NCBI GenBank assembly: GCA_003216275.1
Contig: QCJC01000015.1
Span: forward strand, 1-39,267
Direction: 5' to 3'
DNA: 39,267 bases
Source: Prochlorococcus sp. AG-402-P18
Lineage (GTDB): Bacteria; Cyanobacteriota; Cyanobacteriia; PCC-6307; Cyanobiaceae
A program made the position numbers and the translations under genes. The notes beneath the pieces are model-generated. The model made no database searches. It had not been told where the DNA came from and was given only the letters and a program-made list of their open reading frames with translations. The first letter of the stretch is position 1. Each line of letters begins with the position of its first letter. Below, piece by piece: positions 16,856 through 20,552 of this stretch.

Positions 16856-17122
16856 TCAATTTAAATTGATTCTCATAAGAAATAGAATTATCAATCCTAT
16901 CGATATTAAAGTCAAAGGATAAATCATCAGAAATAAAAGTTCAGTTAAATTCGCTGGCCTATTAACAATAAACAAACCAATTATAAAGATTATTATTGGC
17001 AAGAGTATTAGTGATTTTATTAATAGGCCTTCATTCCATCTCTTAATCTCATTGTCGTCATCTAATAAAATTTTAAATTTCTCCTTTAAAACTTCTTCAT
17101 CGAAATTAGAACGATCAATCAT
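16856..17122 (-). CDS. Two-helix membrane protein, 88 aa
   Basis: The ATG at 17122 (MIDRSNFDEE) is preferred to a TTG at 17137. A charged N-terminal helix (EEVLKEKFKILLDDDNEIKR) precedes two membrane segments: LIKSLILLPIIIFIIGLFIV and LLFLMIYPLTLISIGLIILF. No conserved motif recognised. It is divergent from the SemiSWEET gene, with about 100 bp between them. Confidence 0.6.
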   Translation of the reverse strand: MIDRSNFDEEVLKEKFKILLDDDNEIKRWNEGLLIKSLILLPIIIFIIGLFIVNRPANLTELLFLMIYPLTLISIGLIILFLMRINLN

Positions 17123-17220
17123 AATACAAAATACCAATCCAAACCAGGTAAGCTAAAAACTATATAATAGTTTTTATATTCAACATATTTTGAACTTGAC
17201 CGATTCAAAAATAAAGCAAG

Positions 17221-17502
17221 ATGATTCATTTTAATTATATCGATTGGTTTGGTTTTTCAGCTGCATTACTTACAACTATAGCTTTTTTACCTCAATTATA
17301 TAAAACCTGGAAGACGAAGTCAGCCGATGATGTTTCATTGATTATGTTAATTCTTTTCATAACAGGTCTTGTTTGTTGGATTATTTACGGTTTGAAAATT
17401 AATTCAATTCCTATTGTAATTGCTAATGTAATTACCTTTATTTTTAATTTTTCAATTTTAATTTTAAAAATTACTTATAGTGAAAACAAAAAAATCAAAT
17501 AG
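17221..17502 (+). CDS. SemiSWEET-family transporter, 93 aa
   Basis: A half-SWEET protein of three membrane helices, which dimerises to make a sugar facilitator in characterised members. Helix 1 ends in the PQ-loop motif AFLPQLYKTWKTKSADDVSL (Pro24, Gln25). Helix 2 is IMLILFITGLVCWIIYGLKI and helix 3 has IPIVIANVITFIFNFSILIL; the Asn in helix 3 matches the binding-pocket Asn of the family. The size of 93 residues is standard. Substrate unknown in this organism. Confidence 0.9.
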   Translation: MIHFNYIDWFGFSAALLTTIAFLPQLYKTWKTKSADDVSLIMLILFITGLVCWIIYGLKINSIPIVIANVITFIFNFSILILKITYSENKKIK

Positions 17503-17579
17503 ATTCTTTTATATATATTAAATTATCTTTTTTGAGCTCCTAAAGAAGCTATAGTTACTAGAGAATTAATCTAAATTAA

Positions 17580-17741
17580 ATGTCAGGAGAAGAACTACAA
17601 CTAATTGGAAGATCATTAGCTCTGCATCCTCCTGTAATGATAATCACCCTTGGTTTGTTCATGTACATCAGAGGTAAAGCTATTGCAAGTAGCAATCCAA
17701 CAAAAAAAGTTACCCCATTTTTTCCTTTTAGAAACGTTTAA
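17580..17741 (+). CDS. Small single-pass membrane protein, 53 aa
   Basis: ATG 17580 to TAA 17741, reading MSGEELQLIGRSLALHPPVM, then one hydrophobic helix (IITLGLFMYI), then a basic tail RGKAIASSNPTKKV ending FFPFRNV. TCAGGAG lies after the ATG, not before it. The layout resembles low-molecular-weight photosystem subunits, but I cannot name it. It lies in the cluster of small membrane proteins next to the PsbF-like gene. Confidence 0.6.
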   Translation: MSGEELQLIGRSLALHPPVMIITLGLFMYIRGKAIASSNPTKKVTPFFPFRNV

Positions 17742-17803
17742 AATATAATTATTTGTTATTACCTAACAAAAAAAACAAATAAATTATTGAATTAACATTA
17801 GTT

Positions 17804-18325
17804 TTAACCAAAAGGATTAGTTCCTTTCAATGGGCCTACGAATAGAAATTCCATAACAGCTCCAGTTATTGCTACAGGGAAAACCCAAATAGACATAAAT
17901 CTAATTCCCATAAATTTCATTCCTCCTTTTCCAGCAAATGCATCTTTTGTCATTGTATAAACTGTTTCAGTATCTTTTACTGAGTATGTATTTCTTCCTG
18001 GATCAGAATAAGCCTGAGCAAAGTTCAAATTATTAATTAAATTTCTAACTTTGTTATGCAAAACTATAGGCCAAACCCATAAGAAAAATATACGACTAGC
18101 GAAGGCAAAAGTATCAGACTGAGGAATACCTAATTGCTGTTTAGCTTTATCCTTTGGGAAAGCGTCTTCAATAATTGATGAGATAAGATCTTGATCTGTT
18201 GGAAATACTTTTCTTTCATTAGTGGATTTAGATTCACTCCTCAAGGAAGCAAGTTCAGATCCATTATCTTCCAAAACAGCTGTTGAGCTATTATTTTCAT
18301 TCAGATTTGATTCTTGATTTACCAT
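17804..18325 (-). CDS. Membrane protein of the PsbF-like cluster, 173 aa
   Basis: Residues 1-45 are polar, Ser/Asn-rich and probably disordered. Residues 47-75 contain IIEDAFPKDKAKQQLGIP. The first hydrophobic segment is FASRIFFLWVWPIVLH (about 76-90). A loop with SDPGRNTYSVKDTETVYTMT follows, then a second membrane segment from IRFMSIWVFPVAITGAVMEF to LFVGPLKGTNPFG (141-173). The C-terminus faintly recalls small PSII subunits (PsbJ, or PsbE with RxxxxW where PsbE has RxxxxH), too weak to name. It lies just downstream of the PsbF-like gene on the same strand but behind that gene's terminator, so it probably has its own promoter. No hairpin was seen at its own 3' end. Confidence 0.75.
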   Translation of the reverse strand: MVNQESNLNENNSSTAVLEDNGSELASLRSESKSTNERKVFPTDQDLISSIIEDAFPKDKAKQQLGIPQSDTFAFASRIFFLWVWPIVLHNKVRNLINNLNFAQAYSDPGRNTYSVKDTETVYTMTKDAFAGKGGMKFMGIRFMSIWVFPVAITGAVMEFLFVGPLKGTNPFG

Positions 18326-18427
18326 GACTTATTTTTCTGTAAGCTAATTATAAGCTGTATTAGTTATAGTTGATTAAAAAAATATATAATTTGAAAATTT
18401 TTGATTGAACTATGCTTTTTACTCCAT

Positions 18428-18459
18428 AAAAAAAAGCCTATCTTTTGATAAGCCTTTTT
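18428..18459 (-). terminator. Rho-independent terminator of the PsbF-like gene
   Basis: On the minus strand AAAAAGGCTTATC pairs with GATAGGCTTTTT around an AAAA loop, with two G-U pairs, and runs into eight T. It lies 20 bases past the PsbF-like stop. Confidence 0.75.
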
Positions 18460-18477
18460 AGATTTTTACTTTATAAA

Positions 18478-18771
18478 TTAAGCGTTAATAACACCACGGC
18501 GAATAAATTGCATTGCAAAAATAGCACCAAGGAAAAAGACCGTTGGAATTCCTAATGCATTAACTGCCAATGTCCTAACAGTAAATACTGGATATCCATC
18601 TTGAGGTCTTCCTTTATCTGCAACTATTGCTGTATCTTCCCAAACTTGCTGGTTTTGAATAGTAGGACCATTATCCCAGACAAATACTCCCCATCTTCTC
18701 AACCAATAATCAGTAAAGGCAACTGAAAAAATGACTGGGGTGAGTACCAGGAGTAATTTGAAGTTGATCAT
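18478..18771 (-). CDS. PsbF (cytochrome b559 beta) paralog lacking the heme-ligand histidine, 97 aa
   Basis: Residues 60-91 match PsbF almost throughout: [20 protein letters not shown], then [13 protein letters not shown]. In true PsbF the motif is RWLAVH, where the His is an axial heme ligand. Here it reads RTLAVN: Trp is Thr67 and the ligand is Asn71 (codon AAT, checked on the minus strand). Residues 1-59 are an extension with its own membrane segment ([20 protein letters not shown]) and a loop [17 protein letters not shown], so the protein is more than twice normal PsbF length. No psbE lies nearby. It should sit in thylakoid membranes but cannot ligate heme in the usual way. It is divergent from the PsbL-like gene and has its own terminator. 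Confidence 0.88.
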
Positions 18772-18962
18772 CCATCTATATATTTATCCAATAAATATTG
18801 GCATATGAGAGCCAAAAAGGCTGATTGATTGATTGAGCTTATGGATTCTGTAACAAATTGGTCCGAATTTAGAAGCTTTAATAAGTCTCTAAGTTGACTC
18901 GCAATACTTCTGATAGGGTGTCTTATAGCCTCTTAAAAGGCCTAAATTAACTGGTTTGGTTT

Positions 18963-19397
18963 ATGGAATTTGGTTTTAAAGAAATCCTTTTTGGACTAGC
19001 AGGAGTAAGCATGATTGCTTGGGCTGGTGTAATTGGTCTCTGGCATACCTACATGTTCCCAAGATTTTTCAAAGAAGATTCTCAACGAATTAATAGTGCT
19101 TCCCCAGTGAGTACAACGCAGTCAGCTCAAGCAAATAACGGCTCTAACAAACCTTGGTTTATTGATGACGAAGGGGGAAGCCTTACACCTAATACAGCTC
19201 TTGGAGCGATAGGCCTTAGTGATAGAGGAAAATACAGCAAAAAATCTTTTGTAGTTGCTGATTTCAACCCTATTGAATCTGACTATGGCGTAAACAGGCT
19301 TTACACCTCAATTCTAATTGGATTAGCTATCAGTACATTTGTAATAATTTCCTTTGGACTTCAGAGTGGATTTGGAATGATGGGACCGACCTTATAA
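18963..19397 (+). CDS. Thylakoid-type membrane protein with PsbL-like C-terminus, 144 aa
   Basis: The first membrane segment is residues 5-33 (IAWAGVIGLWHTYMFPRFF). A polar Ser/Asn-rich linker follows (40-65), then PWFIDDEGGSLTPNTALG. The second segment at 108-133 reads YGVNRLYTSILIGLAISTFV. PsbL has ELNRTSLYLGLLL at the same place, so NR, TS and GL line up if two residues (LY) are inserted. The end is GLQSGFGMMGPTL. PsbL similarity is suggestive only. The gene faces away from the PsbF-like gene across a 190-bp shared upstream region and ends in its own terminator. In both proteins a PSII-like segment is at the C-terminus behind an added N-terminal membrane segment. Confidence 0.75.
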   Translation: MEFGFKEILFGLAGVSMIAWAGVIGLWHTYMFPRFFKEDSQRINSASPVSTTQSAQANNGSNKPWFIDDEGGSLTPNTALGAIGLSDRGKYSKKSFVVADFNPIESDYGVNRLYTSILIGLAISTFVIISFGLQSGFGMMGPTL

Positions 19398-19469
19398 ATT
19401 GGTTAAATTAAATTTCAAAAAGACATAGCCAGATAAAACATTTTCTTAAAGCGCAATTAATAGCTCTTT

Positions 19470-19505
19470 AAGTCAGGTTCAAAATATTGAGCCTGACTTT
19501 TTTAT
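19470..19505 (+). terminator. Rho-independent terminator after the PsbL-like gene
   Basis: agtcaggttca pairs with tgagcctgact (one G-U pair) around aaatat, followed by a run of T. It separates the PsbL-like gene from isiB. Confidence 0.9.
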
Positions 19506-19859
19506 TGCATAGCAATTCACTAAAGAAATGTTTTCAGATAAAGATCTTTAAAAAGAAAGACTGGTGCTAATTTTTAAATGTTTTGTATTTATAAAAAAAA
19601 AAACAAAGAGCATTCAATTTTTTTCTCGAAAAAATTTCAATTCATTTTATCTTCAAACCCTTTGATAGCTTTGGTTTGAGAATAGCAATGAAGATAAAGC
19701 CCAAACGAAAGAATTAGTAGCCCAACAACAAAAGTGACAGATATTGACTTTTTTATGTATCAAAAATCAATATTCCATAAACAAGAAAATTTAAAAAAAA
19801 CCAAATTCACTCTAAATGTGCAAAGCTGCTTTAAAATATCGTTGATTTTAAATTGCTCC
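19506..19859. other. isiB upstream region
   Basis: About 350 bp without a gene, containing A- and T-tracts (a long A-run near 19598-19610). The frame of isiB is open upstream to 19734, but that extension does not resemble flavodoxin. I could not identify a Fur box or a clear -35/-10 pair. Confidence 0.5.
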
Positions 19860-20375
19860 ATGACTGTAGGAATCTACTTCGCTACAACAACAGGTAAAAC
19901 CGAAGATATAGCTGAACGGCTTCACGGCTTACTTGACTCTGCTGAAGGTCCAAAGGATATTTCAGATGTCGATGACCTTAGTGAATTAGCTGGACATGAT
20001 GGGGTGATTTGTGGAATCCCAACATGGAACACTGGTGCAGACTCTGAAAGATCTGGAACCGCTTGGGACTCAATCCTTGAAGACATTGGTGAGCTAAATC
20101 TCAGTGGTAAAAAGGTTGCGATTTTCGGCTTGGGAGATTCTTCTACTTATACCGAGAACTATTGCGATGCAATGGAAGAACTTCATAGGTACTTCCAGCA
20201 AGCAGGCGCTTCAATGGTGGGATACGTTGCAAAAACTGATTACACTTTTGACGAGTCCAAAAGTGTAGTTGGAGAACAGTTCTGCGGCTTACCACTCGAT
20301 GAAGACAGTGAATCAGACATGACTGATGAAAGGCTCGCAGGATGGGCTGAAAAACTAAAAAGTGAAATGTTTTAG
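19860..20375 (+). CDS. isiB: Flavodoxin
   Basis: An FMN-binding electron carrier that replaces ferredoxin downstream of photosystem I when iron is scarce. It has 171 residues, a long-chain flavodoxin. The phosphate-binding loop is ATTTGKTEDIAERL (residues 8-21), the first isoalloxazine loop PTWNTGADSERSG, and the second GLGDSSTYTENYCDAM, all in canonical order. The start is taken at MTVGIYFATTTG; the 42 codons of open frame upstream lack homology. In low-iron marine strains flavodoxin may be constitutive; no regulator site was recognised. It sits between the PSII-like cluster and a small RHH-like protein. Confidence 0.96.
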   Translation: MTVGIYFATTTGKTEDIAERLHGLLDSAEGPKDISDVDDLSELAGHDGVICGIPTWNTGADSERSGTAWDSILEDIGELNLSGKKVAIFGLGDSSTYTENYCDAMEELHRYFQQAGASMVGYVAKTDYTFDESKSVVGEQFCGLPLDEDSESDMTDERLAGWAEKLKSEMF

Positions 20376-20397
20376 TCTTACAAACTAAAGACTCCTT

Positions 20398-20431
20398 ATC
20401 TTCCTAAGTGTTACTTAGGAAGATTTTTTTT
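20398..20431 (+). terminator. Rho-independent terminator of isiB
   Basis: atcttcctaagt and acttaggaagat form a perfect 12-bp stem with a gtt loop, followed by eight T. Confidence 0.95.
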
Positions 20432-20552
20432 GCAAATTTTTCTATATGCTAAAAAACACTGAAAAAAAGCCTATTAATACCAAAAAAGTCATTTCCTAAA
20501 GCTCTTTAAGGAAATCAACCAAAAAGCTCGACAATATCTTAATATTTTCTTT

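Follow-up and report, generated by a model that had tools for sequence, protein, structure and literature searches.

Cytochrome b559 of photosystem II (PSII) holds its heme between two axial histidines, one from PsbE (alpha) and one from PsbF (beta), and a 2025 review finds no consensus on a physiological redox role of this heme (PMC12661325). Much of what is described comes from mutants. As summarised in section 4 of PMC4709441, mutants without either b559 subunit have no stable PSII reaction centres, Synechocystis substitutions of the axial histidines (the section lists Gln, not Asn) abolish photoautotrophic growth except in H22K-alpha, Chlamydomonas H23-alpha mutants have 10–20% of PSII left, and the Synechocystis mutants H22K-alpha, R7E-alpha and R17L-beta still give a heme signal with one axial ligand lost. 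In the Thermosynechococcus mutants H23A-alpha and H23M-alpha PSII is active and its cytochrome b559 is in the apo form (PMC4709441, section 4; PMC9214863), with slower recovery from photoinhibition (PMC4709441, section 4). The same section describes Arg19 of PsbF as closely contacting a heme propionate. PsbY adjoins PsbE and PsbF in PSII (PMC4823308) and, as described in PMC9214863, is needed for the high-potential form in Arabidopsis. Apo-cytochrome b559 is thus already known from mutants, and a long form of PsbF already has a name in NCBIfam; the SS120 proteomics described in PMC5451487 detected PSBF_PROMA, the long and canonical forms not being distinguished. The open-access literature that we searched (subscription papers lay mostly outside its scope) holds no report of psbF or heme-ligand loss in natural Prochlorococcus lineages, nor of the long form as a PsbY fusion or of psbF and psbY being gone where the long form remains.

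Here we analyse a long form encoded in a 39,267-nucleotide contig of Prochlorococcus sp. AG-402-P18 (QCJC01000015.1, the whole of which we call the window), originally predicted from the sequence to be a PsbF paralog that has lost its heme ligand. Genomes, loci and genera carry our own codes (G, L and g, respectively). We take the genus of the window to be LLI and G002 to be NATL2A, genera g29/g30 to be LLII/III-like (MIT9211, SS120) and g37 to be marine Synechococcus. Cultured strains exist for the main states described below: following the strain names in PMC11559063, G049 is MIT1223 (LLVIII), G197 is MIT1314 (HLII), and G044, G048 and G124 are MIT1307xe, MIT1341xe and MIT1300xe (all LLVII).

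A long-form PsbF without the axial histidine

The reading frame, its length, coordinates and strand had been correctly identified (Table 1). Over its whole length the window protein scores 182.2 bits against NF002717 ("cytochrome b559 subunit beta, long form", cut-off 153), whilst its second half is recognised by PF00283 (Cytochrom_B559; residues 60–82, 36.6 bits, cut-off 30) and by the PsbF equivalog TIGR01333 (residues 59–92, 64.1 bits, cut-off 61.15), in agreement with the original assignment of residues 60–91 to PsbF. No other family in Pfam or NCBIfam fits the helix better in the profile searches; a better fit elsewhere would have counted against this assignment. Alignment with PDB PsbF chains covers residues 55–92 and places R66 on beta-Arg19, T67 on beta-Trp20 and N71 on the axial beta-His24, the last in both alignments displayed (Thermosynechococcus numbering). 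The RWxxxH heme motif reads RTLAVN, just as first noted, with Asn71 at the axial position and Thr67 for the tryptophan, and the protein contains no histidine at all.

The protein retains beta-Arg19 (R66) and has a partner gene, psbE with its histidine, on contig 2, a different contig from that of the long form; no psbE adjoins it in the window, as had been observed. It is a 97-residue protein with two predicted helices rather than a single-helix protein of ~45 residues inside the psbEFLJ operon. The AlphaFold2 (AF2) model, of modest confidence (mean pLDDT 68), has helices at residues 4–26 and 62–96, the first of which corresponds to the extra N-terminal hydrophobic segment of the original prediction; a Foldseek search of the model against the PDB returned zero matches. 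An Rfam search of 17000–20500 gave no match, and a scan of 17700–19050 found three promoter-like sites, not above chance (5.6 expected), and a single site resembling a terminator, against 0.6 expected, which lies upstream of the long-form gene.

Table 1 Features of the long-form locus and related loci; positions refer to the window unless a locus is named.
Feature	Position	Strand	Basis
Long-form PsbF, 97 aa, ATG start at 18771; PsbY-like and PsbF-like segments, Asn71 for axial His	18478..18771	-	ORF; NF002717, 182 bits; only PsbF found
Putative PsbY-like membrane segment, residues 1–39, predicted helix 4–26	18655..18771	-	PDB profile search; PsbY bridge sequence; AF2 helix
PsbF-like helix, residues 60–92	18496..18594	-	PF00283, TIGR01333; alignment with PDB PsbF chains; invariant columns in long-form alignment
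C1, 173-aa membrane protein beside the long form, conserved in Prochlorococcus	17804..18325	-	Neighbour comparison
C2, 144-aa membrane protein, divergent neighbour; genus of the window, MIT1223, HL loci	18963..19397	+	Neighbour comparison
53-aa membrane protein, conserved neighbour	17580..17741	+	Neighbour comparison
Flavodoxin FldA	19734–20375		Match starts at residue 43
SemiSWEET sugar transporter	17221–17502		NF037968, 106 bits
Tandem PsbY-like short copies (HL)	L183, L184, L185, L186, L189; e.g. L183:9340–9570		
Gln-type PsbE (G044, G041, G050 and others)	L285, L286, L288, L299–L311, L319		

Fixation of the asparagine and selection

We found 241 relatives of the long form in genome contigs, and the best 80 of these, all from named Prochlorococcus or, at three loci, from uncultured Synechococcaceae, carry Asn without exception (80/80). 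When the final residue of the motif was left free in a scan, all 167 Thr-type motifs ended in Asn and all 38 Trp-type motifs in His, counted over redundant loci. An alignment of 28 diverse long forms shows no variation at N71 or R66 and no Trp in 27; the single exception (G054) reads RWLAIN, combining Trp with Asn, and looks like an intermediate. Within the genus of the window RTLAVN occurs in 30/30 long-form loci. The original prediction had asked whether residue 71 is always something other than His, which is the case in every relative read.

The median dN/dS of the whole gene is 0.064 among 22 coding sequences of the genus, about 0 in the PsbF part (dN 0, dS 0.70) and 0.106 across residues 1–59, and 48 HL sequences give 0.066 for the whole gene. 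Given these low ratios, above all in the PsbF part, the long form is neither a chance reading frame nor a decaying gene, and the proposal of selection on a membrane fold without the heme ligand holds.

The only PsbF in several genomes

The long form had been taken for a paralog, with a separate, normal psbEFLJ operon expected elsewhere in the genome. No such operon was found in the window genome (1.85 Mb, 35 contigs, 96.9% complete). A PF00283 search found two places, psbE and the long form, and a six-frame TIGR01333 search (E ≤ 10) returned only the long form and, at 12.6 bits, psbE; the psbE locus reads psbE-psbL-psbJ, with 29 bp from psbE to psbL and no psbF. In G001–G007 and G049, PF00283 at E ≤ 1 likewise identified psbE and the long form, with nothing else above 12.0 bits. 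All 14 psbE loci of the psbF-less low-light genomes (13 from the genus of the window, plus MIT1223) have no psbF in the operon, the spacing of psbE and psbL being 29 bp in the 13 and 34 bp in MIT1223, compared with 145–179 bp where psbF lies between the two genes (48 genomes measured). As the psbE operon is without psbF, the long form is the sole PsbF in the window genome, G001–G007 and G049. The long form was detected at E ≤ 0.001 (TIGR01333) in 30 of 41 genomes of the genus; the other 11 are drafts of 51–93% completeness, one of which (G014) carries part of a long form. In two HL genomes, G190 and G192 (90% and 95% complete, each a single contig, with the same genus code as the HLII strain MIT1314), psbF is likewise missing between psbE and psbL, at spacings of 109 and 104 bp.

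That a normal psbF is present and was missed, through an assembly gap or divergence, leaving the long form as a mere paralog, would be conceivable for a single draft of 35 contigs such as the window genome; the idea is already contradicted by the six single-contig genomes G002–G007 and the single-contig MIT1223, which agree with the window genome, and by the operon itself, and we regard it as hardly credible. The term paralog is apt for many g28 (HL) genomes, for g29/g30 and for a few g37 genomes, where long form and canonical PsbF coexist, and not for the nine genomes named above. The lack of a separate psbF, which the original prediction listed among the results that would undo it, does undo the paralog; it strengthens the ligand-less finding, since the ligand-less form is then likely to be the PSII subunit itself, and a substitute in b559 was among the roles first proposed. 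What stands of the first reading is a PsbF helix kept without its heme ligand and an added segment.

Seven genomes with a long form only and no psbE match (G175, G208, G214, G220, G262, G016 and G022) were set aside from the psbF and psbY counts, because with no psbE match either the operon is missing from their assemblies. PsbY is present in G175, G208, G214 and G220, and G262 has none above threshold.

A PsbY-like N-terminal half

The extra segment had been reported without an identity, its likeness to PsbY being overlooked. A profile of 14 N-termini searched against 177,635 PDB sequences gave PsbY for all five best matches (E 0.025–1.3), the sixth being an unrelated chain, and in a single pairwise comparison hhalign matched the N-terminus to PsbY with 93% probability (E 2.8e-7), against 4.5% for PsbF and 0.3% for PsbE as controls. 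The standalone PsbY of G044 forms a bridge, with 58% identity to the window protein over 38 residues (1–38) and 44–52% identity to typical PsbY among the matches listed. Across 388 genomes of the class, the strong matches to the N-terminal profile (E ≤ 7.1e-8) all came from the taxonomic family of the window and were either long forms or short copies in HL genomes, and in ten genomes of the family without a strong match 10 of 11 weak matches coincided with PsbY places, the exception being on contig 6 of G122 (E 0.001). Pfam PsbY (PF06298) does not match the window protein at E ≤ 1, nor seven long forms by hmmscan at E ≤ 10; 7 of its 19 sub-threshold hits fall on long-form N-termini (G206 twice, G208, G192, G190, G220 and G262; E 0.011–0.35) and 12 elsewhere. 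The PF06298 cut-off is therefore not reached, and profile-level homology to PsbY exceeds that to the other PSII helices. Such weak but consistent matches suggest that the long form is a natural PsbY–PsbF fusion. The C-terminus of PsbY and the N-terminus of PsbF both lie on the cytoplasmic side, and the helix order would fit a fusion in which PsbY comes first and joins the N-terminus of PsbF. A tandem copy of the PsbY-like half only (ORFs of 61–77 aa) adjoins the long form in HL genomes.

PsbY was surveyed in 186 genomes (completeness of at least 98% asked, plus the window genome at 96.9%), with 172 matches, two of them below the Pfam cut-off (G044 and G269). It was not found in 14: G000–G007, G049, G056, G205, G218, G226 and G274, and in the first nine of these the psbE operon was read and is without psbF. 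PsbY is absent from 9/9 of the psbF-less low-light genomes searched and from 5/177 others, counts that are not phylogenetically independent, the nine being mostly of one lineage; the psbF-less genomes G008, G014, G018, G030 and G031 fell outside the survey. Against a joint loss, G175 and G098 have no canonical psbF match but do have PsbY; G175 is also without psbE, and G098 is a 320-contig draft with no PsbF match of any kind in which psbE was not seen, and we ascribe both cases to gaps in the assembly. The PsbY matches in G190 and G192 are confined to the N-terminus of the long form itself. Because the psbF-less operons go together with the absence of psbY and the N-terminus is PsbY-like, the fusion appears to stand in for both PsbF and PsbY in the genus of the window, MIT1223 and the two HL genomes.

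The coexistence of the long form with a normal PsbF in g28 (HL), g29/g30 and a few g37 genomes, and its location in a cassette of small membrane proteins of no assigned function, could instead indicate an accessory or assembly factor outside mature PSII, which in the genus of the window would then run with PsbE alone or with a homodimer. We think this quite improbable, as the long form is the sole PsbF in nine near-complete genomes from which psbF and psbY are jointly absent, and reaction centres are unstable when either b559 subunit is missing (PMC4709441, section 4).

Ligand loss on PsbE and the heme pocket

In other low-light lineages, including the cultured MIT1307xe, PsbF retains its histidine and that of PsbE is replaced by Gln: the Gln-type PsbE reads DIKFWVIQIVTLP or similar, in place of SVRYWIIHAVTLP. 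A search that started from a single Gln-type PsbE, which biases the Gln share upward, gave Gln in 14 genomes of 10 genus codes and His in the other 16 across its 30 best loci. The Gln-type PsbE is confined to MIT1307xe among the three LLVII isolates, MIT1341xe and MIT1300xe having the full pocket. Several g37 genomes have a second PsbE match, away from the long-form locus.

We tabulated the heme pocket in 74 genomes, picked by search rank and not at random. Where both histidines are present the full pocket (alpha-R18/Y19/T26 and beta-R19/W20) is retained in 43/43 genomes. The psbF-less low-light genomes all carry alpha-T26A (14/14), with R18 and Y19 of PsbE retained in the genus of the window, whilst the two psbF-less HL genomes G190 and G192 have an unaltered PsbE pocket, including alpha-T26, the Thr for Trp in the long form being their only further pocket change. 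The alpha-Gln genomes all have alpha-Y19F and beta-W20F (14/14), with alpha-R18K in 13 and alpha-R18D in one. In the remaining genome, G054, psbE was not found. The pocket of the canonical subunits is changed beyond the ligand in 28 of the 30 ligand-loss genomes, and the remaining histidine (on PsbE or, in alpha-Gln genomes, on PsbF) is retained in 30/30. In most of these genomes, then, loss of the ligand is accompanied by changes at other heme-pocket residues.

The number of events was considered on a Ycf48 tree (73 rows), a single-gene tree with a weak backbone. The genus of the window groups with G049 (support 90/98), and the HL clade has G190 and G192 at its base. The PsbE His/Gln states imply at least five changes on this tree; a single clade of the 14 Gln rows is not rejected (p-AU 0.387), so we claim only at least one change event. 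Presence and absence of psbF imply at least three changes, and because of the basal position of G190 and G192, one loss of psbF followed by regain is an alternative to separate losses.

Neighbourhood of the long form

The long form lies amongst small membrane proteins that bear no Pfam or NCBIfam name and recur as a cassette (window 17580–19397, L003–L082 and L178–L189) of C1 (137–202 aa), C2 (121–157 aa as ORFs) and the 53-aa protein, the last with relatives of 53 aa in two of the HL loci compared. Neither C1 nor C2 matched a Pfam or NCBIfam family at E ≤ 1, and the AF2 model of C1 is poor (pLDDT 56). C1 was considered as a tandem cytochrome-b559-like protein on account of its "RFxAIWVLP" motifs, and gained no support, with hhalign probabilities of 0.3% to PsbF and 0.1% to PsbE. 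These membrane proteins may belong to the same complex as the long form. One HL genome (G206) has two cassette copies, L185 and L186, 359 kb apart, besides a normal psbF. Other neighbours were seen at L174–L177 (G377, G363, G379 and G362), L182 (G052) and L287 (G054), amongst them a pentapeptide-repeat-like protein with a signal peptide, judged by eye. As the match of FldA begins at residue 43, its true start is probably near 19860 and not at the listed GTG. A phage or viral origin was also considered and set aside: viral contigs gave no pattern match and 50,697 phage records no tblastn match, and PHROGs gave weak matches only (best E 0.2 for the long form and 0.0043 for its 173-aa neighbour).

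Possible consequences for the heme of cytochrome b559

We give a probability of roughly 0.6 to the reading that the PsbY–PsbF fusion is the sole beta-type subunit, pairs with PsbE in PSII, and leaves the complex unable to form a bis-histidine heme, and likely without any heme. The long form would take the places of both PsbF and PsbY beside PsbE, and the PsbE/PsbF scaffold for PSII assembly would thereby be retained. With one of the two axial histidines missing the bis-histidine heme would be impossible; the site would most likely be empty, with a structural role alone remaining. The fusion would thus preserve the scaffold and fix the position of PsbY, the redox role being given up or changed. 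The single copy, the missing psbF and psbY, purifying selection, the Asn of every copy read, the altered pocket and the PsbE route are observations; we infer that the long form sits in PSII, contacts PsbE and has no heme. The active PSII of the Thermosynechococcus H23A-alpha and H23M-alpha mutants speaks for the feasibility of such a state. Arguments against an apo-cytochrome are that Gln, the natural change on PsbE, is on the list of growth-abolishing substitutions in Synechocystis, that Chlamydomonas H23-alpha mutants have so little PSII left, and that G190 and G192 retain alpha-T26.

The main doubt is that heme may still be held by the lone PsbE histidine, the second ligand, Asn71 or water, being weak or lacking; this would give a mono-His heme, of low potential or high spin, whose open site may react with oxygen species. 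Several observations are consistent with this: the second histidine is never lost in the 30 ligand-loss genomes, R66, the counterpart of the heme-propionate contact beta-Arg19, is invariant in the 28 long forms, the Asn is fixed and not drifting, PsbE of the genus of the window keeps R18 and Y19, and the three Synechocystis mutants cited above retain a heme signal with one ligand gone. However, 27 of the 28 long forms have another residue in place of beta-Trp20 (the exception is G054), the alpha-R18 changes to Lys or Asp in the alpha-Gln genomes should weaken propionate binding, and helices so strongly conserved for packing make the kept histidine weak evidence; a heme bound in this way seems to us unlikely, though well short of negligible. 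A second ligand supplied by another residue or another protein, restoring a normal heme, we consider extremely unlikely: nothing was found in its favour, the window protein offers no histidine of its own, and no partner came to light in searches that had other aims.

Beyond this locus, we lean towards the view that natural PSII runs without the b559 heme in whole Prochlorococcus lineages, the ligand having been lost by different routes, through the PsbY–PsbF fusion with His to Asn, and through His to Gln on PsbE in low-light lineages including MIT1307xe. If so, oxygenic photosynthesis could in nature dispense with a cofactor regarded as universal to it, with one iron saved per PSII, which would bear on how a highly abundant phototroph manages its iron and its photoprotection. 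Natural loss of either axial histidine in cultured strains, alongside cultured relatives that keep both, turns the question of what the heme does into a direct comparison. The naming of the long form as "cytochrome b559 subunit beta" carries the implication of a heme protein and is called into question.

Comparison with known systems

The window protein is by score a member of NF002717, and the descriptions returned for NF002717/NF002720, compared as descriptions only, are silent on heme loss, PsbY or the replacement of psbF. With canonical PsbF (TIGR01333) the long form has in common the helix including beta-Arg19; it differs in the missing axial histidine and Trp20, in the added PsbY-like half, and in lying outside the psbEFLJ operon. 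Its N-terminal half aligns with PsbY (PF06298), and psbY is missing from genomes in which the long form is the only PsbF; unlike PsbY it falls below the Pfam threshold and is fused to PsbF. The Thermosynechococcus H23A-alpha and H23M-alpha mutants resemble the proposed state, with an axial ligand removed, no heme and active PSII; these are laboratory mutants of PsbE, whereas in the long form the change is natural, fixed and on PsbF.

A PsbF–PsbY fusion is found in the solved structure of the Acaryochloris marina PSII-Pcb complex (7YMI/7YMM; PMC12661325), where chain F, of 99 aa, also combines PsbF-like and PsbY-like segments; a PsbY query finds its residues 63–98 (E 0.023). In that chain, unlike the long form, PsbF comes first and PsbY second, and the axial histidine is present. 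Both lineages use Pcb antennae, and the Prochlorococcus and Acaryochloris fusions may be convergent.
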